From: Solobacterium sp.
Lineage (GTDB): Bacteria; Bacillota_I; Bacilli_A; Erysipelotrichales; Erysipelotrichaceae
Reading direction: 5' to 3'
Assembly (NCBI GenBank): GCA_017536885.1
Contig: JAFWCM010000307.1
Span: forward strand, 1 to 40,733
Length of the DNA: 40,733 nt
Shown: one piece after another, positions 23,508 through 36,851 of the stretch
Numbering within the stretch: the first letter of the stretch is position 1
How the letters are laid out: every line of letters begins with the position of its first letter
Notes under the pieces: generated by a model
Told to the model about the DNA's origin: nothing
The model's input: the letters and a program-made list of their open reading frames with translations, nothing else
Database searches by the model: none
Position numbers and translations under genes: made by a program

Positions 23508-24968
23508 ATGGATCTTTGGAAAAAAGGAAAAGACAGGGTGTATGACTTTGCCTTTGTCTATGAAATCAAAAACAGGGAACAGGACAGTCTGCTTCTTTTG
23601 AAAAGCGAGATGGAATACCGCGGTTACAGCGTGAAGATGATTGAAGACTGGGAACAGGCGATTCATCGCGATGTGCCTCCTTTCGCAAAGACGGTGGTAT
23701 CCTTTGCCCTTCACAGCAAGGAGACGATGGACTTTATCAGCCAGTTTGTAAGAGGCGCTGACCGCTTTGTCAATCTTCAGTGGGAACAGGTCTATACCAA
23801 CGGCGACCGGGCTCAGAAAGCCGAAGAAGGCGGCACCACCGGCGTTTTCGACGAAGCGAAAAAGGCGATGCATATCTGCTGGGGAGAAAAGACCAGGGAA
23901 GATCTCACGCAGAAATACGGTCTCAAAGAAAGCCATGCGGCCGTCACCGGATGTATTTCCCTGGATTTTCTGCGGGAGGAATTCCGCCCGTTTTATCTTT
24001 CCAAAGAGGCACTGCAGAAGAAATTCGGCATCGACAAGTATAAAACGATGTATCTGATGATTTCCTCCTTCAGCTATGGTCAGCTGCCGGAAACGGTGAT
24101 CAACAGCGAACTCTATCAGAACCAGGGATTTGATGTCCGGGCGCAGGTCAGGATCGAAGTGGAATCACAGCGGATCATTCTGGACTGGCTGGAAGAAGAA
24201 GTGATCCGCCATCCTGATATTCTGATGGTCTACCGCCCTCATCCCGCCGAGTCGAATATTAAACGGCTTGCGGAGCTGGCAGAGAAGTATGACAATTTCC
24301 GGGTCATCCCAGATCTCTCCATTCGTCAGTGGATCCTGACAGCGGACCGGATGTTTACCTGGTGGAGCACCTCGGTCGCGGAGATCTATGCGGCGGGCAA
24401 GGGCTGTTCCATTCTGCGGCCGGTGGAGCTGCCGCATGAAAATGATCTTGAAATCTATGAAGGCGCCAGGTTTGTGACAACCTTCGAGGAATTTGACCGG
24501 AACTATCTTGGCAGGGATACGTTTCCGATCAGCGATGAAGTCATGCAGAAATACTATGCGATCGATAAGGACATTCCCGCCTTCATGAAAATTGCGGATG
24601 TGCTCGAGCGGGTATTACACGACGATGAATTCAAAGTCGAAGGATATGAGAACCTTCGCGCAACCCCGGTTGTTACGGCAGCCGCAAACGCAAAGTGGAA
24701 TCTTAAGCAGTTTGTCTTCGATCATGAGCCGCTCTGCAAAATTGCCGAGAAGATTGCCGGCGATCGGATTATCAGTCCCCGCGGCGATCTTGCGGCACTG
24801 AAGAAAGAGTTTGCGTATTTCCGCGAGATGGCAGAAAAAAACCACCAGGACTATGATGAGATGAAAAACCGGCTGATCACACTGACCCGGCTTTCCGACC
24901 CGTTCCGAACCCGCAGAACGAAAGAAGAGCCAGCAGAGAGAGAAGAGACAGAAGGAGAGATACGATGA
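23508..24968 (+). CDS. Surface carbohydrate biosynthesis protein, probable GT-B transferase
   Basis: A 486-residue soluble protein. It opens with YDFAFVYEIKNREQDSLLLL and has FVNLQWEQVYTNGD, MHICWGEKTREDL, VTGCISLDFLREEFRP, MVYRPHPAESNIK (about residue 240) and FTWWSTSVAEIYAAGKGC (about 283). The HP and SxxxE elements resemble those of Kdo, polysialic and CDP-glycerol type GT-B transferases, and it recalls the surface-carbohydrate proteins found beside neuB-like genes. I infer that it uses the CMP-activated nonulosonic acid made by the genes that follow; this is not proven by the sequence. AAGGAGG precedes the ATG. It overlaps neuB by ATGA. Confidence 0.7.
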   Translation: MDLWKKGKDRVYDFAFVYEIKNREQDSLLLLKSEMEYRGYSVKMIEDWEQAIHRDVPPFAKTVVSFALHSKETMDFISQFVRGADRFVNLQWEQVYTNGDRAQKAEEGGTTGVFDEAKKAMHICWGEKTREDLTQKYGLKESHAAVTGCISLDFLREEFRPFYLSKEALQKKFGIDKYKTMYLMISSFSYGQLPETVINSELYQNQGFDVRAQVRIEVESQRIILDWLEEEVIRHPDILMVYRPHPAESNIKRLAELAEKYDNFRVIPDLSIRQWILTADRMFTWWSTSVAEIYAAGKGCSILRPVELPHENDLEIYEGARFVTTFEEFDRNYLGRDTFPISDEVMQKYYAIDKDIPAFMKIADVLERVLHDDEFKVEGYENLRATPVVTAAANAKWNLKQFVFDHEPLCKIAEKIAGDRIISPRGDLAALKKEFAYFREMAEKNHQDYDEMKNRLITLTRLSDPFRTRRTKEEPAEREETEGEIR

Positions 24969-25999
24969 AGGAAAACCATGCAGTAATCATCGCCGAAGCC
25001 GGCGTGAATTATAACGGCGACATTGAAATCGCAAAGAAGATGGTAGATGCCGCGGCGGATGCCGGAGCGGATATCGTCAAATTTCAGACGGGCATTCCCG
25101 AGAAGGTGATTTCGGTATTTGCCGAAAAGGCAGACTACCAGAAAGTCAATACCAACGACCCCTCTGGCGAAGAGAGCCAGCTGGACATGGCCAGGAAACT
25201 GATGCTGCCATGGGAGGTATATCCGGAACTGATCGCCTATTGCCGCGAAAAGGGGATTGAATTTCTATCCACCCCGTTTGATATCGATAGCGCGGAATTC
25301 CTTCATTCCCTGGGGATGAAGCAGTGGAAGATTCCCTCCGGGGAGATCACCAACCTTCCGCTCTTACGAAAGATCGCATCCTTTCATGAACCGGTGATCC
25401 TTTCCACCGGCATGGGCACATTGGATGAAATCGAAGATGCGATCCATGTCCTTCTGACCGGCGTGAAGAAATCGGATATCACCGTGCTTCAGTGCAATAC
25501 GGAATATCCGACTCCCTATGAAGACGCCAATGTCCGGGCGATGATTACCCTGGCGGAACGCTTCGGCGTCAAAACCGGATATTCCGATCATACCAGGGGA
25601 ATCGAAGTGCCGATTGCCGCTGCGGCGCTGGGTGCGGCGATCATCGAAAAGCACTTCACCCTGGACCGGACCATGGACGGTCCCGATCAGGTGGTCAGTA
25701 TTGAACCGGATGAACTGAAACAGATGGTGCAGAGTATCCGCAATGTCGAAAAATCACTCGGCAGCGGAATCAAATATCCAAGCTATTCGGAAGCCAAGAA
25801 TATGAAGATTGCCCGCAAGAGCATTGTGGCATCCCGCCCGATCAAGGCGGGGGAGATCTTCTGTGAAGAGAACATCACCTGCAAGCGTCCCGGCGACGGG
25901 ATTTCCCCGATGAAGTGGGATGAAATCCTCGGAAAGAAAGCACAGCGGGACTATCAGCCGGATGAAAAACTCGATGAAAGGGAGCTTTCCCGCGCATGA
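24965..25999 (+). CDS. neuB: NeuB-family nonulosonate (sialic acid-type) synthase
   Basis: A 344-residue cytoplasmic enzyme that condenses a hexosamine with phosphoenolpyruvate to give a nine-carbon 2-keto acid. The TIM barrel starts with VIIAEAGVNYNGDIEIAKKMVDAA and has ADIVKFQT, KQWKIPSGEITNLPLLR, VILSTGMGTLDEIEDA, LQCNTEYPTPYEDAN, GYSDHTRGIEVPIAAAALGA and IEKHFTLDRTMDGPDQ. The C-terminal SAF (antifreeze-like) domain begins near 280 (RKSIVASRPIKAGEIF). All expected family regions are present. The family includes Neu5Ac, legionaminate and pseudaminate synthases; the substrate is not readable, but lack of an aminotransferase or acetyltransferase in the locus favours a simple ManNAc-type substrate. 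ATGA overlaps on both sides. Confidence 0.94.
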   Translation: MKENHAVIIAEAGVNYNGDIEIAKKMVDAAADAGADIVKFQTGIPEKVISVFAEKADYQKVNTNDPSGEESQLDMARKLMLPWEVYPELIAYCREKGIEFLSTPFDIDSAEFLHSLGMKQWKIPSGEITNLPLLRKIASFHEPVILSTGMGTLDEIEDAIHVLLTGVKKSDITVLQCNTEYPTPYEDANVRAMITLAERFGVKTGYSDHTRGIEVPIAAAALGAAIIEKHFTLDRTMDGPDQVVSIEPDELKQMVQSIRNVEKSLGSGIKYPSYSEAKNMKIARKSIVASRPIKAGEIFCEENITCKRPGDGISPMKWDEILGKKAQRDYQPDEKLDERELSRA

Positions 26000-27279
26000 A
26001 TCCGGAGATCAGAGAAGTACTGAAGGGGAAGCGGATTCTGTTCATCGGGGCATCGGGCCATTATGAGCTTGCGGTGAAGAAGGCGCAGGAATACGGAGCC
26101 TATGCGATGTGCGTTAACTTCAATCCCAACGCGGCCGCGAAGAAATACGCGGATCTTGGCGCGGATGTGGATACGTATGTTCCCGAAGAAGTGCTTGCCT
26201 TTGCCAGGGAGAACCGGGCCGACGGCATCTTCACTTCCTGGAATGAAGTGAATCTCTATACGGCCGCTTATGCGGCGGAAAAGCTCGGCGTTCCCTTCTA
26301 TGCAAAGAAAGAGCAGCTGGATGCCCTGATTACCAAGGATGCCTTCAAGCGCACCTGCAGAACGTACGGGGTTCCCTATATCCATGAATTCTTTGTCGGA
26401 AACAGACTTACGGAAGCGGATATCGCAGCGATGGAATATCCGGTGATCGTCAAACCAACCGACAGCGGCGGCACCCGCGGGATGACCGTCCTCTATTCCC
26501 GGCAAGGGCTGGAGGAAGCCGCGGAAAAAGCGCTGGAAGTATCCATCAAAAAAGAATTCGTCGTGGAGCCCTACCTCAGAAACGGACAGCTTCTTGTTAT
26601 GGATTTCATCGTGCAGAACGGAAAGGCAGTGCTCTGCAGTGCGGCCGACCGTTCTTTGATCCGCACCTCGGAGAATGAAGTGCCGCTTTCGATTGCCTTC
26701 ATGTATCCCTCAAAATATATTGATGTGATCAAAGAACAGGCGGTGAGGCCGATTCAGAATCTCATCACAGGTCTCGGGATCGAAAACGGAATCATCTCCT
26801 TTGAGGCGATGGTCAGCGAAGGAAAGCTGTATGCAATTGAATCGCAGTTCCGTTTCGGCGGCACCCATTTCTATACGCTTCTCGAAGAGGAATACGGCAT
26901 CGATCTTCTCGGCATGATGCTTGCTTATGCGATCACCGGCCGTTTTGATTATTATTCTCTGGATCGCGTTTCGCCCGAATTCAAAACCCTGTATGCATGT
27001 CAGAACCTGCAGGCATACGGCGGCAAAGTGAAATCCATTTCGCACCGTGAAGAGATGATGAAGCTGCCGGGGGTATTGTGGTCGGTCATGATCAAGACGA
27101 TCGGAGACACCGTCCCGGCCGATGGATCGACGGCGATCAATTTCGCCAAGATCGGAATCACCGGAGATACCGAACGGGATCTTTACCGGACGATGGACCG
27201 GATCCAGCATACCTTAGTGGCAGAGGATGAAGAGGGGAAGAATCTCATCAAGCAGAATATCCCTCCCGAGTATCTTTAA
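25996..27279 (+). CDS. ATP-grasp enzyme
   Basis: A 427-residue cytoplasmic ligase of the carbamoyl-phosphate-synthase-like ATP-grasp group. The N-terminal Rossmann-like part starts with ILFIGASGHYELAVKKAQEYGA, then FTSWNEVNLYTAAYAAEKLGVPF. The ATP-grasp core is seen in ALITKDAFKRTCRTYGVP, YPVIVKPTDSGGTRGM (glycine-rich loop) and FVVEPYLRNGQLLVMDF, then FEAMVSEGKLYAIESQFRFGGTHFY, which carries the late metal-binding acidic and Asn/Gln positions. Such enzymes join a carboxylate to an amine or thiol through an acyl phosphate. Being set between neuB and neuC, it could attach an amino acid or other amine to a sugar acid. Product unknown; not part of the known minimal sialic pathway. Confidence 0.85.
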   Translation: MNPEIREVLKGKRILFIGASGHYELAVKKAQEYGAYAMCVNFNPNAAAKKYADLGADVDTYVPEEVLAFARENRADGIFTSWNEVNLYTAAYAAEKLGVPFYAKKEQLDALITKDAFKRTCRTYGVPYIHEFFVGNRLTEADIAAMEYPVIVKPTDSGGTRGMTVLYSRQGLEEAAEKALEVSIKKEFVVEPYLRNGQLLVMDFIVQNGKAVLCSAADRSLIRTSENEVPLSIAFMYPSKYIDVIKEQAVRPIQNLITGLGIENGIISFEAMVSEGKLYAIESQFRFGGTHFYTLLEEEYGIDLLGMMLAYAITGRFDYYSLDRVSPEFKTLYACQNLQAYGGKVKSISHREEMMKLPGVLWSVMIKTIGDTVPADGSTAINFAKIGITGDTERDLYRTMDRIQHTLVAEDEEGKNLIKQNIPPEYL

Positions 27280-27313
27280 AGAAACACCGCAGAAACAACA
27301 AGAGGCAGAAAAA

Positions 27314-28105
27314 ATGAAGCGGTTCGACTATCACCTTCACAGTGAATATTCCATGGACTCAGGAGAGTCCCTTTCCAATATCTCTGCCAAAGCAATCCGC
27401 GAAGAGATGGAAGAGATTGCGGTCACCGACCATGCGGAGCTGCAGAATCCGGAAGATCTTCCCGACTTTCATCGCCGCCAGGCGGAACTTGCCGAACTGA
27501 ATCAGAAGTATGAGGGCTCTTTGAAACTGAAAAGCGGAATAGAACTTGGCCAGCCGCATCGCTTCCCGAAGGAAGCGGAACAAATTCTTTCGGAAACTGC
27601 TTTTGATTTTGTGATCGCTTCGCTTCATGAACTCGAAACCCTCGGATCCCCGGCGAACTTCGCCTTTGACAAGACAAGCGCGCCGGTCTTCTTCCGTCAG
27701 TATTTTGAAGAGCTCAGAGTGATCGCTGAGACGGCAGACTATGACGTTCTCGGACACGTCACCCTGCCGTTTCGCTATGTACCGGAGTCTCTTTCTGACC
27801 TCCATCATCCCATGCTTTATCGCAGGGAATATGAGGAAATTTTCCGCATTGTGATCGGGCGGGGAAAAGGCATTGAAGTCAACACCAGCGGCTTACGCAC
27901 GAGACTTGGGGAACCCATGCCCGGATCGGAACTTCTTTCGTGCTATCATAACCTCGGCGGCCGGGTGATTACCGTCGGTTCGGACGGCCATTCCTGCCGC
28001 AGTGCGTTTCTCGGGATCGAAACCGGGATGGAGACTCTGAACCGTGCCGGATTTGAGACTGTGACAGTATTTACCAACAGGATTCAGAAACAGGTGAAGC
28101 TATGA
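27314..28105 (+). CDS. PHP-domain phosphatase, histidinol-phosphatase-like
   Basis: A 263-residue PHP metal hydrolase. Metal ligands of the fold are in place: DYHLHSEYSMDSGESLSN (HxH), VTDHAEL, GIELGQPHRF (Glu), VIASLHEL, VLGHVTLPFRY and TVGSDGHSC (DxH). In amino acid pathways this family removes the phosphate of histidinol phosphate, but no his gene is near and it sits between the ATP-grasp gene and neuC, so a sugar-phosphate or cyclitol-phosphate substrate is more likely (inference). The frame extends back to 27227, but that would overlap the ATP-grasp gene and is unlike the family; ATG 27314 has AGAGG upstream. Overlaps neuC by ATGA. Confidence 0.88.
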   Translation: MKRFDYHLHSEYSMDSGESLSNISAKAIREEMEEIAVTDHAELQNPEDLPDFHRRQAELAELNQKYEGSLKLKSGIELGQPHRFPKEAEQILSETAFDFVIASLHELETLGSPANFAFDKTSAPVFFRQYFEELRVIAETADYDVLGHVTLPFRYVPESLSDLHHPMLYRREYEEIFRIVIGRGKGIEVNTSGLRTRLGEPMPGSELLSCYHNLGGRVITVGSDGHSCRSAFLGIETGMETLNRAGFETVTVFTNRIQKQVKL

Positions 28106-29274
28106 AAAAACTTGTTGTTCTCACCACCAACCGGGCGGATTTCGGATTGCTGAGACCGGTGATCCAGAAGCTTCGCAAAAAGGAGTCGCTTGATGTAAGA
28201 ACGGCGGTATCCGGCTCCCATCTCTCTCCCGAATTCGGCATGACCTACCGGGAAATCGAAGAGGCGGGAATTCCGATCGACCGGAGAATAGAAATTCTTC
28301 TGAGCGGGGATACGCCCTCTGCGATTTCCAAAACCATGGCCCTTGCCGTGATGGGGTTTGCGGATTATTTCGAGGAACGAAAGCCCGATGCGCTTCTCGT
28401 GCTGGGGGACCGGTATGAAGCGTTTTCGGTATGCATCGCCGCGGTCAATGCGAGAATTCCGATCATCCACCTCTATGGCGGAGAAACCACGGAAGGGGCG
28501 GTAGATGAGTGTTACCGCCATTCCATCACCAAGATGGCGATGTTTCACTTCACGGCGACCGAAGAATTTCGGCAGCGGGTGATTCAGTTGGGGGAAGATC
28601 CTTCCCGGGTATTCCTGGTCGGAGCGATGGGGGTGGAAAACGCCCTGCATTTTGATCCCCTGAACGATGCGGAGTTTGAGAAGCTCACCGGGATCAATGA
28701 TGAGCGGCCTCTGGTGATGTGCACCTTCCATCCGGTGACGCTCGAAAGTGATACGGCAAGACTTCAGATCAGGAAACTCCTGTCTGCCGTGGAACAGTTT
28801 CCCGGGTATTTCTTTCTGTTTACGAAAGCGAATTCGGATGCGGACGGAAGAATCATCAATCAATGCATTCAGGACTATGTCAACACCCATGAAAATGCGG
28901 TATTGGTTGATTCGCTCGGGGCGAGAGGGTATCTTACGGGATTGCGCAAGGCAAGCTTTGTATTGGGCAATTCCTCGAGCGGTCTTGCCGAAGTGCCGAG
29001 CTTCGGGATTCCGACGATCAATATCGGTGACCGGCAGAAGGGAAGAATCAAAGCGGCCAGCGTGATCGACTGTGCTCCCGAAACGGATGCTATCATCGCG
29101 GCGATCCATAAGGCAGAAGATCCGGATTTCCGCAGCGTCTGTTCGCTGCGGGTCAATCCCTACGGAGACGGCAATACCTCTTCCGCGATTGCGGACCGGA
29201 TTGAGGAACTGATGAAAAACGATCTGAATGTGAAGAAATCGTTTTATGATATGAAAGCGGCAAAGGAGCTGTGA
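28102..29274 (+). CDS. neuC: NeuC-type UDP-N-acetylglucosamine 2-epimerase (hydrolysing)
   Basis: A 390-residue GT-B-like epimerase that releases a 2-epimerised free amino sugar (for example ManNAc) from its nucleotide form, the substrate of NeuB. Family features: VLTTNRADFGLLRPVIQKL, TAVSGSHLSPEFGMTYREIEE, LVLGDRYEAFSVCIAA, IIHLYGGETTEGAVDECYRHSI with the conserved DExxRH-like motif, and VLGNSSSGLAEVPSFGIPTINIGDRQKGR. GDP-linked (LegG) and UDP-linked (NeuC) forms cannot be told apart here. It is followed after one base by the GAPDH-like gene, so both halves of the locus are transcriptionally one. Confidence 0.93.
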   Translation: MKKLVVLTTNRADFGLLRPVIQKLRKKESLDVRTAVSGSHLSPEFGMTYREIEEAGIPIDRRIEILLSGDTPSAISKTMALAVMGFADYFEERKPDALLVLGDRYEAFSVCIAAVNARIPIIHLYGGETTEGAVDECYRHSITKMAMFHFTATEEFRQRVIQLGEDPSRVFLVGAMGVENALHFDPLNDAEFEKLTGINDERPLVMCTFHPVTLESDTARLQIRKLLSAVEQFPGYFFLFTKANSDADGRIINQCIQDYVNTHENAVLVDSLGARGYLTGLRKASFVLGNSSSGLAEVPSFGIPTINIGDRQKGRIKAASVIDCAPETDAIIAAIHKAEDPDFRSVCSLRVNPYGDGNTSSAIADRIEELMKNDLNVKKSFYDMKAAKEL

Positions 29275-29275
29275 G

Positions 29276-30313
29276 ATGAAGAAAAGAGTACTGATCAACG
29301 GATTCGGACGCATCGGAAGGACGATAGCGCGAATCAATCTGAAACATGATGTGTTTGAACTGGCGGCGATCAATGACATCAATCCCGACAACAAGAATAT
29401 CGCCTATCTTCTCAAATACGACAGCACGTTCGGGCGGCTGGAGAATGAGATTACCAGCGATGACCAGGGAATCGTGATCGATTCGCATCCGGTGCGGGTC
29501 ACCCATGAAAAAGAGTTTAAGAACATCGATTTTTCCGGCATCGATATCGTGATTGAATCCTCCGGAATCAAAACCAATATCCTGCAGATGGAAGAACTGG
29601 CGGAAACCTCTTTCGTCGAGCGCTTTATCGTAACCAATGTGGATTCGAAGAAGGCGCAGAACATTCTCTTCGGCGTCAATGAGCAGCTGATCAGAGATCC
29701 AAAGAAGAGGATCCTCTCCTCCAGCATCTGCGATGTGGTATCCCTTGGCCCGGTGTACAACGTTCTGGAAACCGCCTTCGGCATCGAAAGCGGCTTTCTG
29801 ACCACCCTGCATCCATGGCTTTCCTATCAGAACCTCATGGACGGCCCGGCCAAATCCTGGTCGCAGCCGGGGGATGTCTATTCCCATTATGCCCTGGGAC
29901 GCTCCGCGGTCATGAGCCTGATTCCCAAATCCACCTCGGCCGTCCGGGCCCTGGGAAATGTATTTCCTGAGGCGGTGGATAAAATTGCCTGCTTTTCCTA
30001 CCGCACACCCACCAATCTTGTTTCCAGCGGTGTCTTCTCCGCCGTGCTGAAGAAGGATACCTCCAGCGAAGAGCTGATCCGCCTGTTTCAGGAAGCTGAG
30101 AAAAAGCAGAAGTACCATGTCTTCCGTACTACGGATGAACCACTGGTTTCGGTGGACTATATCGGAAATGATTACTCTGCCGTTCTCGATACCAGATGGA
30201 TCCAGGTCGTCGGCGGAAATCATATTGAAGTGGTTTACTGGTATGACAATGAATGCGGGTATTCTTCCCGTATTGTGGATATTGTCCGGGTTCTTTCCGA
30301 ACCGGAGTCCTGA
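29276..30313 (+). CDS. GAPDH-like aldehyde-phosphate dehydrogenase, divergent
   Basis: A 345-residue NAD(P)-dependent enzyme of the glyceraldehyde-3-phosphate dehydrogenase fold. The Rossmann part is INGFGRIGRTIARI and AINDINPDNKNIAYLLKYDSTFG. The catalytic Cys aligns with SSSICDVVSLGP (canonical SNASCTTNCLAP) and the catalytic His with TTLHPWLSYQNLMDGP (canonical TTVHAYTxxQxxxDGP). The usual SCTTN threonine is Asp and the SSTGAAKAVG loop reads KSTSAVRALG, so the phosphate pockets differ. It should therefore oxidise or reduce an aldehyde near a phosphate, but glycolytic use is unlikely from context. Neighbours are neuC and a glycerate-kinase-like gene. It may be an erythrose-phosphate- or aldose-phosphate-type dehydrogenase feeding the cyclitol branch. 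Confidence 0.88.
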   Translation: MKKRVLINGFGRIGRTIARINLKHDVFELAAINDINPDNKNIAYLLKYDSTFGRLENEITSDDQGIVIDSHPVRVTHEKEFKNIDFSGIDIVIESSGIKTNILQMEELAETSFVERFIVTNVDSKKAQNILFGVNEQLIRDPKKRILSSSICDVVSLGPVYNVLETAFGIESGFLTTLHPWLSYQNLMDGPAKSWSQPGDVYSHYALGRSAVMSLIPKSTSAVRALGNVFPEAVDKIACFSYRTPTNLVSSGVFSAVLKKDTSSEELIRLFQEAEKKQKYHVFRTTDEPLVSVDYIGNDYSAVLDTRWIQVVGGNHIEVVYWYDNECGYSSRIVDIVRVLSEPES

Positions 30314-30321
30314 GGCAAGCG

Positions 30322-31485
30322 ATGAAAGTTCTTGTGGTATCCGGTTCCTTTAAAGATGTGTTCAGTCCTCCGGAAGCGACGAATCTGATCCGGGACAGTT
30401 TTTTAAGGCACGGCTATGACGTTTCCGGCGTGCCTTTTTGTGATGGGGGAGAATATACCTATGAGGTATTGAAGGAAATCCTTTTTGATGCGGAGGAAAT
30501 CATCGTCGACGATGTGATCTTTCCGGATGGATCCCGAAGGCCCTGTCATTATCTGATCGACCGGGACAGCGCCCACATCGTCTCGTCGGAAATTCTGCGT
30601 CTGCTTCCCGAAGAAGATGCCCGGAAGAATCCGCTGCTTCTTACCGATTACGGATTCGGCCAGCTGATCGGTGATGCCCTGAAGCGCGGCATCAAAACAC
30701 TGAAGCTGTATCTTGGCGGCACCTCGACCGTCTGTTTTGGCATGGGGATGATCCAGGCCATGGGGGCGAAGCTGTATGAGGATGAGGGAACCCTGATTCC
30801 TGTACCGGCGGTACCGGCAAATATGAAACGCCTTCAGCGCATCGAAATCGATCGTTCTTTGTTTCAGGATGTCCGGGTGACGGTGATTGCGGACGGCAAT
30901 GCCTGTGCGGATGAGATGAAAGGGATCACCGCTCTCAAAGTCGGCAGGGCATTTCAGAAAGATAAAGAAGAGATCGTCCGGGAAAGCGAAGAAGTCAAAG
31001 AGCGTGTCACCATGGTCACCGGCTTTGGGACAACGCGGGATTTCAGCGGTGCGGCCGGCGGGCTTCTGTACGGCATCGATCTGGTGTTTGATGGGGACTA
31101 TGTCCTGGGCGGCATCTATTTTACTGATCTTCTCAACATCAGAGAGAAGATCAGAGACTGTGATCTTGTCGTCACCGGCGAGGGCCGCTATGACAATACC
31201 GCCTGCGGAAAAGCCCCGGCCAGCGTTGCCGCGATCGCAAAGTCCCTCGGAAAACCGGCGGTCCTGGTCTGCGGGCAGATCGACACGGATGCGATTCCGG
31301 AATATTCCGGGGGAATCCTCCGGGATCTTCCCGAAGCAAAGGAACTTGGCTTCCATGCCGTATTGACCTGTCAGGAATACTATGATGAACATCCCCCGGA
31401 GGGAAGTTACCCGGAACAGATCGAGCAGTATCGTGCGCTTACCCCGGTTCTTCTCGATCAGCTGATCGGAGAATTCCGTTTATGA
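30322..31485 (+). CDS. Glycerate kinase-like protein (GlxK/PF02595 type)
   Basis: A 387-residue protein of the type I glycerate kinase family. Landmarks are VVSGSFKDVFSPPEATNLI (canonical APDSFKGSLSA), PFCDGGEYTYEVL (ADGGEGT), TDYGFGQLIGDALKRGI, LYLGGTSTVCFGMGMIQAMGA (canonical GGSATNDGGxGxxxALG), GAAGGLLYGI and VVTGEGRYDNTACGKAPA with VLVCGQID. The GGSATNDGG loop is changed to GGTSTVCFG, so the substrate may not be glycerate. Role by position: phosphorylates a polyol or sugar acid before nucleotide activation by the next gene, with which it overlaps (ATGA). The frame is open to 30253, but ATG 30322 follows GAGG and the family start. Confidence 0.85.
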   Translation: MKVLVVSGSFKDVFSPPEATNLIRDSFLRHGYDVSGVPFCDGGEYTYEVLKEILFDAEEIIVDDVIFPDGSRRPCHYLIDRDSAHIVSSEILRLLPEEDARKNPLLLTDYGFGQLIGDALKRGIKTLKLYLGGTSTVCFGMGMIQAMGAKLYEDEGTLIPVPAVPANMKRLQRIEIDRSLFQDVRVTVIADGNACADEMKGITALKVGRAFQKDKEEIVRESEEVKERVTMVTGFGTTRDFSGAAGGLLYGIDLVFDGDYVLGGIYFTDLLNIREKIRDCDLVVTGEGRYDNTACGKAPASVAAIAKSLGKPAVLVCGQIDTDAIPEYSGGILRDLPEAKELGFHAVLTCQEYYDEHPPEGSYPEQIEQYRALTPVLLDQLIGEFRL

Positions 31486-32207
31486 AGGCCGTGATTCTTT
31501 TAGCCGGCGTGGGACGGCGGATGGGCGGTGAAACAAACCATCTTCATAAAGCGCTGATTCCCCTGCAAGGAAAACCGCTGCTGGATTATCTTCTGGAAAA
31601 CCTTCGAAGATCCAAAATCACTGAGGTGATTCCGGTGCTTGGATATCAAAGGGAAACAGTCCTTTCCTGCATCGAGCGCTGCTCGTCTGATCTTGACGTC
31701 AGACCGGTATACAACCCGGACTATGCAAACTCCAACAATCTTGTTTCACTGGTTTCTGCCGAAAAAGAAATCGGCGGGGAAGATTTTATTCTGATCAACG
31801 GAGACATGGTTTTTGATCCGGACATTCTGATCCGGATGAAAGAGATCTGCCATTCCTGCATTGCGGTGGATATGGTGCATAAAGCAGAAAAGATTGACAG
31901 TCCGAAAGTGCAGGGAAAGCAGCGCATTACCGATCTTGGCCGAGAGATACCTCTGCCCGAAAGCATCGGCTATGCGATCGGAATTTATCGCTTTCAGGCC
32001 GATCTGCTTCCCGACTTTATGAGTAAGGCGAAGGAATACATTACAAGGGACCGCATGCATGGCTTCCATGATCCCCTGCGGGATCTCTTTGCGGATCATG
32101 AAATCCTGCCGGTAAATATTGGTACACTGGAATGGAAGGATATCGATGATCCGTCCGATCTTAAGGAAGCAGAGGAAATCATAAGGAGACTGTATGGAAG
32201 TGAATGA
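31482..32207 (+). CDS. LicC/IPCT-like nucleotidyltransferase
   Basis: A 241-residue cytoplasmic sugar- or polyol-phosphate nucleotidyltransferase. It starts KAVILLAGVGRRMGGETNHLHKALIPL (canonical AAGxGxRMxxxTxxxPKxL; the lysine is kept), then GYQRETVL, YNPDYANSNNLVSLVSA, which recalls the NN-SL motif of phosphocholine and inositol-phosphate cytidylyltransferases, FILINGDMVFDPDIL (metal-binding Asp), and WKDIDDPSDLKEAEEII near the end. CTP is the likely nucleotide by that resemblance. The alcohol phosphate is unknown; the product of the cyclase branch is a candidate. It shares 14 bases with the SDR gene. Confidence 0.87.
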   Translation: MKAVILLAGVGRRMGGETNHLHKALIPLQGKPLLDYLLENLRRSKITEVIPVLGYQRETVLSCIERCSSDLDVRPVYNPDYANSNNLVSLVSAEKEIGGEDFILINGDMVFDPDILIRMKEICHSCIAVDMVHKAEKIDSPKVQGKQRITDLGREIPLPESIGYAIGIYRFQADLLPDFMSKAKEYITRDRMHGFHDPLRDLFADHEILPVNIGTLEWKDIDDPSDLKEAEEIIRRLYGSE

Positions 32208-32964
32208 ATTCAGCGGAAAGAAGATTCTGATCACCGGTACTTCGCGTGGGATCGGAAAAGCTCTTGCGGCCTATTTTGTGAAAGAAAAGGCGGAAGTGTA
32301 TGCCGTCTCGCGAACCGCCTGTGACATTCAGGAACCGAACTTTCATTTTCTGAAGGCGGATATTCAGGATACCGAAGCGATTCTCCGCTGGCTGGATCAG
32401 AAAGAAGTCTCTCTCGACATCCTGATCAACAATGCCGGAATCATCTGCTATGAGAATCTCCTGGATGTCTCGAGAGAAGAAATCCAGAAGGTATTTTCGG
32501 TGAATGTCATCAGCACCCTCTGTCTTTGCCGGGAGATTGCCCGCCGGATGATGGGACAAAACCGTCCCGGGGTCATCGTGAATACGATCTCCTTTGCGGC
32601 GAAGATTCCCTCTGTTGGCTCCGGCATCTATGCCGCATCGAAAGCCGCCCTGGAATCTTTGACGAAGACCATGGCGGCCGAATGGGCGCCGTACGGAATC
32701 CGGGTCAACGGATACAGTCCGGGAGTGATCGAGACGGATATGACCGCTCCGGCGATTCAGGCAAACCGGGAAGCGATGACGGATGTGATTGCGCTTCACA
32801 GGATCGGGACAACCGAGGATGTCGTAAAGGCTGTCGCCTTCCTTGCGGGAAGTGACTCCTCCTATCTTACCGGCATCAATCTTGAAGTCTCGGGCGGAAA
32901 GCTGATTGTACAGAATGCCGGCAGAGCCTGGAAAGAAAGAAAAGAAAGGGAAGAAGGAAAATGA
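32194..32964 (+). CDS. Short-chain dehydrogenase/reductase
   Basis: A 256-residue classical SDR. TGTSRGIG binds the dinucleotide, ILINNAG is the structural motif, and the catalytic residues are Ser in ISFAAK and Tyr/Lys in YAASKAAL, followed by IRVNGYSPGVIETDM. The C-terminal tail is highly charged. It likely oxidises or reduces one hydroxyl of a cyclitol or sugar; the substrate is not readable. AAGGAG precedes the ATG. It overlaps both neighbours: 14 bases with the nucleotidyltransferase and ATGA with the cyclase gene, which is strong evidence for one pathway. Confidence 0.9.
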   Translation: MEVNEFSGKKILITGTSRGIGKALAAYFVKEKAEVYAVSRTACDIQEPNFHFLKADIQDTEAILRWLDQKEVSLDILINNAGIICYENLLDVSREEIQKVFSVNVISTLCLCREIARRMMGQNRPGVIVNTISFAAKIPSVGSGIYAASKAALESLTKTMAAEWAPYGIRVNGYSPGVIETDMTAPAIQANREAMTDVIALHRIGTTEDVVKAVAFLAGSDSSYLTGINLEVSGGKLIVQNAGRAWKERKEREEGK

Positions 32965-34103
32965 GCCAGCGGAACAACGATATTGAAACAACCTACACGC
33001 ATACCTATTCCAGTCGGTTTATCATCGACCGGGATCCGGAATTCGGCCGGATGAAGGAAATGGGGCTGGAGAACTACGACCGGCTGTTCTTTGTGATGGA
33101 TGAGAATGTGGAACGGATCTACCGGGATAAAATCCTGGCGAATACCGTAAGTATCAATCAGGAATTCCATATCCTTTCCGTCAAACCGGAAGAGCACTCC
33201 AAATCGATCGATTTCTATCCCGTTCTGGTTTCCTTTCTCGAAGAGAAAAATGCCGGAAGATATGATGCGGTCATCGCCGTGGGCGGGGGAATCATTATCG
33301 ATCTGGTGAGTTTTACCGTATCCACCTATATGAGAGGCCTGCCGTTATTCATCATTGCGACTACACTGATCGGACAGACTGATGCGACCACCGCCGGTAA
33401 AACCTGCCTCAACAGCAGGAATGCGAAAAACCTGCTCGGGACATTCTATTATCCCATCGTCGTCTATAACAGCATTGAAATCCTTCGGACCTGTCCGAAG
33501 CGGATTACCCGTCAGGGACTTTCCGAAGCCTTCAAATACAGCCTGCTCACTGACGGAAAAGCATTGCAGGATATCATTGATTTCTGCACCCATGAGTTTG
33601 ACAGCGATGTGATGGAACGCATTGTCCGCAAGACGATCGAATCCCGCATCGCCGTAAGAAAGGTCGATCCCCTGGCGAGCAACCTCGGCCATACGTTCGG
33701 CCACGCCCTGGAAAAATACTCCGGCTATACGGTACTGCATGGTGATGCGATTCTGACCGGAACGGTGATGGCGATGACCTACGCGGTGGAAAAAGGCCTG
33801 ATGAAGGAAGAAGAAAAAGAGCGGATTTTCGCGATGATGAAGGAAGCGGGACTGAATATCTATATCCCCGAGGACTTTCAGCCGGAGCGCCTGGTGGAAT
33901 ACATGCGCAAGGACAAGAAATCCAGTTCGAAGAAACTGCATCTCGTCATGATTCAGGGAATCGGAAAACCGTATCGCGGACTAACCCCGTTTCTTGAAGC
34001 GGACTATGATGACGTGGAGGACTTCCTGAAGCGCTATACCGCCTCGTATCCGTATAAGAAGAGCGATTATGCGGAGTATCTCAACAAGGAATCGCTCGAT
34101 TGA
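32961..34103 (+). CDS. Sugar phosphate cyclase, 3-dehydroquinate-synthase-like fold
   Basis: A 380-residue NAD- and zinc-dependent cyclase of the AroB superfamily. AVGGGIIIDLVSFTVSTYMRG replaces GGGVIGDL in E. coli AroB. The lysine motifs AGKTCLN and AKNLLGTFYYP, the metal ligands in GLSEAFKYS, NLGHTFGHALEKY and LHGDAI, and the late RKDKKSSSKKLHLVM are retained, so it should be active. The segment after the active-site Asp is about six residues shorter than in AroB, and the conserved Arg of RxxLNxGHT is missing (the place reads DPLASN). This argues against 3-dehydroquinate synthesis and for another cyclisation, as in 2-epi-5-epi-valiolone or 2-deoxy-scyllo-inosose synthases. No shikimate gene is nearby. 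It is the key marker of the unusual branch. Confidence 0.88.
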   Translation: MSQRNNDIETTYTHTYSSRFIIDRDPEFGRMKEMGLENYDRLFFVMDENVERIYRDKILANTVSINQEFHILSVKPEEHSKSIDFYPVLVSFLEEKNAGRYDAVIAVGGGIIIDLVSFTVSTYMRGLPLFIIATTLIGQTDATTAGKTCLNSRNAKNLLGTFYYPIVVYNSIEILRTCPKRITRQGLSEAFKYSLLTDGKALQDIIDFCTHEFDSDVMERIVRKTIESRIAVRKVDPLASNLGHTFGHALEKYSGYTVLHGDAILTGTVMAMTYAVEKGLMKEEEKERIFAMMKEAGLNIYIPEDFQPERLVEYMRKDKKSSSKKLHLVMIQGIGKPYRGLTPFLEADYDDVEDFLKRYTASYPYKKSDYAEYLNKESLD

Positions 34104-34119: not shown

Positions 34120-34554
34120 ATGATTAAGAATATCAATCACGTCAGCTTTACCGTCCATGACCTGGATCAGTCCGTTGCCTTCTACCAGAATGTTCTGGGA
34201 CTGAAATGCGTGAGCCTTGCGGAGAGGGATGAAGCGTTTTCCTCGGCGGTTTCCGGAGTCAAAGGAGCCGAGATGAAAATCGCCTATATGGAAGGGCCGA
34301 ACTGTTCCATCGAGCTGATCCAGTATGTCAAAGGGGAAGGAACGCGGATCGACAGCCGGACCAATAACCCCGGAAGCACGCATCTCTGTTTCCATGTCAG
34401 TGACTATGATGACTGGATGAAGCGCATGAAGGATCACGGTGTGGCCATGCGGGGAGAACTCTGCGTTGTGCCGGCCGGTCCGAACATGGGCAGACGCGTC
34501 TGTTATATGATGGATAACGAAGGAAACAACCTCGAATTCATCGAGAGTGTCTGA
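34120..34554 (+). CDS. VOC (glyoxalase/epimerase-fold) metalloprotein
   Basis: A 144-residue protein of the vicinal oxygen chelate superfamily made of two beta-alpha-beta-beta-beta units. All four metal ligands are visible: His in NHVSFTVHDLD, Glu in SIELIQY, His in GSTHLCFHVSDY and Glu in GNNLEFIES. Family members include methylmalonyl-CoA epimerase, glyoxalase I and dioxygenases; ValD of validamycin synthesis is a VOC cyclitol epimerase. In this setting, 16 bases after the cyclase gene, an epimerase of the cyclic product is a reasonable inference. ATG 34120 with AGAGGA upstream is preferred over an earlier in-frame start inside the cyclase gene. Confidence 0.87.
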   Translation: MIKNINHVSFTVHDLDQSVAFYQNVLGLKCVSLAERDEAFSSAVSGVKGAEMKIAYMEGPNCSIELIQYVKGEGTRIDSRTNNPGSTHLCFHVSDYDDWMKRMKDHGVAMRGELCVVPAGPNMGRRVCYMMDNEGNNLEFIESV

Positions 34555-36152: not shown

Positions 36153-36851
36153 ATGAAAAATATTGCTGTGATTCCCGCCAGAAGCGGATCGAAGGGACTT
36201 CCCAACAAGAATATCAGACTGCTTGCGGGAAAGCCGCTGCTTGTTTATTCCGTCGAGGCGGCCCGCGCATCGGGTCTGTTTGACACGGTCATGGTGTCTA
36301 CGGATTCCGAAGAATATGCAGAGATCGCAAGATCTGCCGGTGCCGAGGTTCCGTTTCTGAGAAGTGAGGAAATGTCATCGGATCATGCGGGATCCTGGGA
36401 AGCGGTGGAAGAAGTTCTGGACAACTACCGCCGGCTCGGAAAGGAATTTGATACGGTGACATTGCTGCAGCCGACATCTCCCTTAAGAACTGCGGAGGAT
36501 ATCCGCAATGCGTTTGCGATTATGGAAGAGAAGAACGCAAATGCGGTTATAACAGTCTGTGAAACAGAACATTCTCCTCTGCAGTGTGATGTTCTTCCGA
36601 AAGATCATTGTATGGATCAGTTTGTCAGTAAATCCGCAAGGGATCAGCGCCGTCAGGATATGGACACCTATTACCGGGTCAACGGGGCGGTCTATCTTGT
36701 AAAAACGGAATATCTCCTTGAAGATCACGATATTTGCCGCAATCAAAGCTATGCGCTTGTCATGGACCGCCGGCGCTCGGTTGACATCGATGATGAAATT
36801 GATTTCAAACTGGCAGAAGTGCTTCTTGCCGACCGGAAAGAGCGGGAATAA
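36153..36851 (+). CDS. neuA: CMP-nonulosonate (sialic acid-type) cytidylyltransferase
   Basis: A 232-residue enzyme that joins CMP to the anomeric hydroxyl of a nonulosonic acid made by NeuB. It has the signature IAVIPARSGSKGLPNKNIRLLAGKPL, then VMVSTDSEEYAEIA, LQPTSPLRTAEDI and YYRVNGAVYLVKTEYLL, and ends with the SVDIDDEIDFKLAEVLL segment that carries the two metal-binding Asp residues. Length fits the short bacterial NeuA/LegF class without a C-terminal esterase. AAGGAGAGG precedes ATG 36153. It lies about 8 kb from neuC, beyond the cyclitol-like block and the broken gene, and closes the glycan locus. Confidence 0.93.
   Translation: MKNIAVIPARSGSKGLPNKNIRLLAGKPLLVYSVEAARASGLFDTVMVSTDSEEYAEIARSAGAEVPFLRSEEMSSDHAGSWEAVEEVLDNYRRLGKEFDTVTLLQPTSPLRTAEDIRNAFAIMEEKNANAVITVCETEHSPLQCDVLPKDHCMDQFVSKSARDQRRQDMDTYYRVNGAVYLVKTEYLLEDHDICRNQSYALVMDRRRSVDIDDEIDFKLAEVLLADRKERE

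Follow-up and report, generated by a model that had tools for sequence, protein, structure and literature searches.

The window, i.e. the whole 40,733-nucleotide stretch of Solobacterium sp. DNA analyzed here, harbors a gene for a sugar phosphate cyclase (SPC)-family protein which, together with five relatives, appears from sequence comparisons to constitute a new and sharply distinct SPC subfamily, apart from AroB (3-dehydroquinate synthase, DHQS), 2-deoxy-scyllo-inosose synthase (DOIS) and EEVS. The explanation that we favor, and consider likely, is that this is an NAD+- and Zn-dependent SPC of a horizontally spread subfamily with a non-shikimate function, and that its six-gene cassette produces a CDP-activated polyhydroxy unit, here called X, which ends up as a phosphate ester on surface glycans. 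X is best read as a cyclitol and/or a hydroxy acid.

Protein features and fold

The open reading frame of the SPC gene is intact, its ATG overlaps the stop codon of the preceding short-chain dehydrogenase/reductase (SDR) gene (Table 1), and the product contains the Pfam domains DHQ_synthase and DHQS_C. All of the SPC superfamily residues are present: G108-G110 and D114 of the NAD motif GGGxxxD, the zinc ligands E189, H244 and H260, and the catalytic D141, K147, N157 and K192. The zinc ligands among these were correctly called intact in the first-pass annotation; the same had been said of the lysine motifs, which holds for K147 and K192 but not for the pocket Lys, its place being taken by Arg229 in all six members. 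An AF2 model of the protein (pLDDT 92) had DHQ synthase 1nvd as its best structural match (Z 39.8, rmsd 2.2 over 341 residues), with EEVS ValA (Z 37.0), DOIS BtrC (36.6) and DDGS (36.0) as other matches and iron alcohol dehydrogenases far lower, at a Z of about 26. Judged by this modeled fold the protein belongs to the SPC superfamily, in line with the AroB fold that had been proposed for it.

The window SPC scores 249 bits for the NCBIfam AroB family (TIGR01357), which is less than the curated cut-off of 305. It is also far from TIGR04425 (AroB-related putative sugar phosphate phospholyase, cyclizing), likewise an uncharacterized AroB-like branch, for which it reaches 187 bits against a cut-off of 400.

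Table 1. The cassette of the window and its upstream genes, with nucleotide positions in the window.
Feature	Position	Strand	Remarks
NeuB, ATP-grasp, PHP and NeuC	24965..29274	+	upstream of the cassette, co-directional
GAPDH-like dehydrogenase	29276..30313	+	catalytic Cys/His kept, CTTN replaced by CDxx, phosphate site altered, insertion SQPGDVYSHYALGR
Glycerate-kinase-type kinase (PF02595)	30322..31485	+	other family in L016/L017
Nucleotidyltransferase	31482..32207	+	closest solved structure LicC (CTP:phosphocholine cytidylyltransferase)
SDR	32194..32964	+	
SPC-family protein, 380 aa	32961..34103	+	R229 in pocket-Lys slot; ASNLGHTFGHA preceded by six-residue deletion; Zn ligands E189/H244/H260
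Shortened active-site segment (R229-H244 codons)	33645..33692	+	16 residues vs at least 22; coordinates from ORF start 32961
VOC (glyoxalase-like) protein	34120..34554	+	candidate metal ligands H, E, H, E

Relatives and their distribution

Five full-length relatives, with 42-48% identity to the window SPC, were found in Campylobacterota (L014, Epsilonproteobacteria UBA4036), Nitrospinota (L015, Nitrospinia), a Pacearchaeota MAG (L016), the CPR group Woesebacteria (L017, RBG_13_46_13) and Pseudomonadota (L018, Gammaproteobacteria). Their AroB scores of 231-262 bits are all under the cut-off, and the next matches, with at most 35% identity, are ordinary AroBs.

While a single-sequence scan of genome contigs gave zero matches, the scan that was used was steered by an alignment of the window protein and five synthetic rows, the latter serving only to pick motifs, and its matches held up in tblastn searches with the actual window protein; it is blind to members without KNLLGTFY or GLSE[AV]FKY. 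The 273 genomes of the host family, 395 of the host class and 392 of the host phylum (overlapping sets) yielded no further member, the class and phylum matches being ordinary AroBs with the full 22-residue segment. About 730 genomes in the classes of the L014, L015, L016 and L017 hosts held nothing beyond the known relatives, the plasmids scanned had AroB and DOIS types only, and the viral contigs scanned, although rich in SPC homologs, had none of the subfamily.

Both the phylogeny and the active-site comparison that the first-pass annotation had proposed as checks were carried out. In a maximum likelihood tree of 56 sequences, including one characterized EEVS (ValA) and zero EVS or DDGS sequences, the six members form a single clade (support 100/100, stem 0.84), separate from AroB, from the DOIS clade (itself 100/100) and from ValA, with the deeper branching order lacking resolution. 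The DOIS reference BtrC is identical to 2d2x over 368 residues. Homologs from viral contigs (L103-L182, IMG/VR) are common, and most of those sampled constitute a supported clade (100/99) apart from AroB; one of them, L103:10001-11044, is a member of the TIGR04425 family with 420 bits.

Since the distribution of the subfamily is sparse and cuts across bacteria and archaea, it fits horizontal spread. The GC content of the cassette genes, 0.48-0.54, is no different from that of the remaining window, i.e. no foreign base composition was seen. The contig of L018 (G763:C91; L018 and L194) carries conjugation-type genes, as read from the sequence, and is a possible mobile natural-product cluster.

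Active site

The active-site comparison employed an alignment of 170 SPC-family sequences: the six members and 164 others, which include ordinary and solved AroBs, BtrC, ValA and SPCs from viral contigs. Counting from the pocket Lys/Arg through the first GHTFGHA His gives 16 residues for every member and at least 22 for every one of the others. The segment before GHTFGHA, earlier put at about six residues shorter than in E. coli AroB, thus has a deletion of exactly six residues, present in 6/6 members and 0/164 other sequences. In place of the pocket Lys itself (K221 in S. aureus, K250 in A. nidulans), each of the six has Arg229; among the others, 163 have Lys and none Arg. Likewise, the Arg of RxxLNxGHT was rightly described as replaced: the Arg264 (S. 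aureus R235) slot, four residues before the conserved Asn, is occupied by Pro or Ala in the members (P237 in the window protein) and by Arg in 158 of the 164 non-members, the only six without it including DOIS-type enzymes. That GGGVIGDL reads GGGIIIDL is also correct, but it was dropped as evidence since it is not diagnostic, the usual Gly being kept in only 84 of the 164 non-members. The catalytic Lys K192 is matched by His in 25 of these 164.

The DAHP pocket of S. aureus DHQS comprises D130, K136, N146, E178, K181, K221, R235, N239, H242, H246 and K314 (PMC6262012). Because nine of these 11 residues are kept in the subfamily and the K221 and R235 slots are changed, the machinery for oxidation and beta-elimination appears to be intact with one end of the pocket rebuilt; the inter-subunit Arg position is kept too. 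Asn241, invariant in the subfamily, is the counterpart of N246 in M. tuberculosis DHQS, which has been implicated in ring opening and aldol closure (PMC6262012). Arg229, in turn, is invariant at a position lining the DAHP pocket in DHQS and could bind a carboxylate. Loss of Arg264 alone is therefore no proof of lost carboxylate binding, and the substrate may consequently be carboxylated or DAHP-like. The argument from a lost carboxylate-binding Arg is hence weakened, although the Arg264 slot as such is indeed without Arg; the first-pass annotation had itself named an equivalent Arg elsewhere as a finding that would count against it, and Arg229 goes part of the way towards that.

Relation to the shikimate pathway

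A non-shikimate role of the subfamily is, in our judgment, highly probable. The host of the window has an AroB proper (C25:7749-8672, 311 bits with a cut-off of 305), adjoining aroC (C25:6634-7683), and consequently does not need the window SPC as its DHQ synthase; it is true, as had been noted, that no aro genes lie near the latter. The hosts of L014, L015 and L018 also carry AroBs, of 369-379 bits. In the hosts of L016 and L017, both small MAGs of which the completeness is not established, searches for aroC, for another AroB and for a PF00793 DAHP synthase found nothing, which is suggestive rather than conclusive in speaking against an aromatic role of the SPC there. Nor was a DAHP synthase recognized in any cassette. 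The earlier claim that the protein is probably not a DHQS can, as regards a DHQS of the shikimate pathway and with the sub-cut-off score, the separate aroB-aroC pair of the host, the loop and Arg changes fixed in a clade of its own and the shikimate genes not found in two hosts, be raised to very probable.

Transketolase, a usual source of erythrose 4-phosphate, was not detected in the genome of the window's host (G000) or in G761, which makes sedoheptulose 7-phosphate doubtful as a universal substrate. G000 is 95% complete and has no Transketolase_N match, yet DAHP synthase, aroB and aroC are present; the transketolase gene may sit on a missing contig, or there may be another source of erythrose 4-phosphate.

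Cassette neighbors

The order of the cassette in the window is GAPDH-like dehydrogenase, kinase, nucleotidyltransferase, SDR, SPC and VOC protein, with short or overlapping junctions. In L014, the kinase is followed by nucleotidyltransferase and SDR in one 504-aa ORF (L014:8478-9992), SPC, VOC and GAPDH-like genes and, just downstream of the cassette, a CDP-glycerol glycerophosphotransferase-like domain (PF04464, Glyphos_transf) fused to a methyltransferase domain (L014:13381-15174). L016 and L017 share the order CDP-alcohol phosphotransferase, nucleotidyltransferase, DUF4147-MOFRL glycerate kinase, SDR, SPC and VOC; the L016 contig ends within the VOC gene, while L017 has divergently oriented genes for the GAPDH-like enzyme and the phosphotransferase. 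The order in L015 is HIT, SPC, VOC, GAPDH-like, and L018 has SDR, SPC and GAPDH-like genes, then a transporter-like ORF and genes for a TauD dioxygenase and an NRPS, with an AMP-binding (adenylating) enzyme nearby.

VOC directly follows SPC in five of the six loci, and wherever the contig of a relative reaches far enough, a GAPDH-like gene accompanies the SPC. In the kinase slot the window has PF02595, and L016 and L017 have an unrelated family, the DUF4147-MOFRL glycerate 2-kinases. A LicC-like nucleotidyltransferase is found in four of the six loci and CDP-alcohol-type phosphotransferases only in L016/L017, with Glyphos_transf in L014; none was identified in the window. As L015 and L018 lack both kinase and cytidylyltransferase, CDP activation is not universal in the subfamily. 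Next to 75 ordinary AroB loci, covering 1.06 Mb, the only cassette partner seen was a single generic SDR, and the literature searched contained no description of the gene set. For the residue changes in the GAPDH-like protein, the comparison with E. coli GapA and an alignment of solved structures agree; its AF2 model, built from a five-sequence alignment, was poor (pLDDT 58.6) and was set aside.

NeuB and NeuC upstream are over their sialic-acid cut-offs, with the ATP-grasp and PHP proteins between them, and these genes are a capsule-type context outside the conserved cassette. Two further window genes are a PseF-like cytidylyltransferase just under its cut-off (36153-36851; 190.7 vs 205.7) and, between a flippase-like ORF and NeuB, a 486-aa protein lacking a Pfam match (23508-24968), possibly a surface-polymer transferase.

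Proposed pathway

That the cassette is a CDP-X pathway we hold with good confidence. In the scheme that we infer for its reactions and their order, the SPC would oxidize a hydroxyl of a sugar phosphate, expel phosphate by beta-elimination and return the hydride, whereupon the product would close to a keto-cyclitol. The VOC protein would then epimerize or isomerize beside the ketone, the SDR reduce the ketone, the kinase phosphorylate X, the LicC-like enzyme make CDP-X and a CDP-alcohol phosphotransferase finally transfer X-phosphate. The GAPDH-like enzyme probably converts an aldehyde to a carboxylate and, with both unrelated glycerate-kinase families recognizing a hydroxy acid, X would then bear a hydroxy-acid group. 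Resemblance of X to a 2-hydroxy acid is suggested because glycerate is the substrate after which both of the unrelated families in the kinase slot are named; whether X carries a carboxylate is nevertheless a close call, in which we lean slightly against it. Ring closure by the SPC is somewhat favored, owing to the invariant Asn241, but it is less than certain, since an acyclic hydroxy acid would also fit both the glycerate-type kinases and the constant presence of a GAPDH-like partner. We know of no cyclitol pathway with a GAPDH-like enzyme, which counts against the favored explanation, as does the small size of the subfamily, of which six members are known.

The characterized SPCs named in PMC4426668 (DHQS, aminoDHQS, EEVS, EVS, DDGS and DOIS) use very few substrates. 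The new substrate proposed in the first-pass annotation is plausible. We give an even chance to the wider proposal of a new SPC reaction on a substrate of no known member, in a mobile six-enzyme pathway of bacteria and archaea to a CDP-activated, so far undescribed cyclitol or cyclitol acid that would go into surface glycans and, in one lineage, into an NRPS product. Given its reshaped pocket and its compact cassette, carried even by small-genome CPR and Pacearchaeota in which shikimate genes were not detected, the subfamily points to a precursor of surface glycans that has not been described before, and 'aroB' annotations in capsule loci can mislead.

Alternative explanations

The same genes could also be read as a pathway with no ring at all, which we regard as rather unlikely. 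The SPC would here be an acyclic phospho-lyase that, with the GAPDH-like enzyme, turns a short aldose phosphate (e.g. erythrose 4-phosphate) into a deoxy keto acid, from which VOC and SDR would make a glycerate-like 2,3-dihydroxy acid to be phosphorylated and CDP-activated. Glycerate is the only substrate common to the two kinase families, the linkage of the GAPDH-like enzyme would be accounted for, and in L018 the SDR-SPC-GAPDH core has an adenylating enzyme and an NRPS as neighbors, a setting in which an acid building block would make sense. All characterized SPCs that we know of cyclize, however, the Asn implicated in ring closure is invariant, and the transketolase that would usually supply erythrose 4-phosphate was not detected in the window's host. 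A known SPC reaction in a reshaped pocket, i.e. that of EEVS with sedoheptulose 7-phosphate or that of DOIS with glucose 6-phosphate, within an acarbose-type pseudosugar pathway and with VOC as the 2-epimerase, is unlikely in our view. Acarbose biosynthesis does use the same series of enzyme kinds, namely SPC, kinase, epimerase, reductase, kinase and nucleotidyltransferase (PMC9200736), but the nucleotidyltransferase is of the GTP-preferring AcbR type instead of LicC-like, the kinase families are other ones, and the GAPDH-like enzyme is extra in the cassette. BtrC shares with the subfamily the SPC fold, the GHTxGHA motif and the lack of Arg in the Arg264 slot, and in cetoniacytone biosynthesis an SPC product is epimerized by a VOC protein, CetB. 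Nevertheless, BtrC (22% identity) and ValA (21-22%) both belong to separate clades and lack the six-residue deletion, BtrC having a full-length loop; Asn241 of the subfamily is Glu in DOIS, where YGHT follows, and Asp in ValA, and the latter has Asp-x-GHSFSP where the members have ASNLGHTFGHA, without the His at H248. The supply of sedoheptulose 7-phosphate is, moreover, doubtful in G000 and G761.

For a second, diverged DHQ synthase, whose product the SDR would reduce to a quinate-like acid destined for phosphorylation and CDP activation, speak the mostly intact DHQS pocket, the solved DHQSs as nearest structures (28-31% identity to the best solved bacterial members) and Arg229, which could stand in for Arg264 at the carboxylate. 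We find it quite improbable, as the six members are all under the AroB cut-off, DAHP synthase and aroC were not found in the L016 and L017 hosts, with DAHP synthase recognized in no cassette and no shikimate linkage, and those few non-members that lack the Arg include DOIS-type enzymes, which have an uncarboxylated substrate. That the gene is a decaying, functionless aroB duplicate is scarcely credible: its active-site residues are changed relative to AroB, but six lineages from different phyla share these changes in fixed form, along with conserved catalytic residues and partner genes.

Similarity to CDP-ribitol synthesis

The favored CDP-X pathway is reminiscent of CDP-polyol pathways such as CDP-ribitol synthesis, where SDR and cytidylyltransferase are also paired or fused and CDP-alcohol-type phosphotransferases are found nearby; the cassette differs in adding the SPC, VOC, glycerate-type kinase and GAPDH-like genes. 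According to work cited in PMC4873967, Acs1 is a CDP-ribitol synthase in which a reductase is fused to a cytidylyltransferase, and the single nucleotidyltransferase-SDR ORF of L014 recalls this arrangement.
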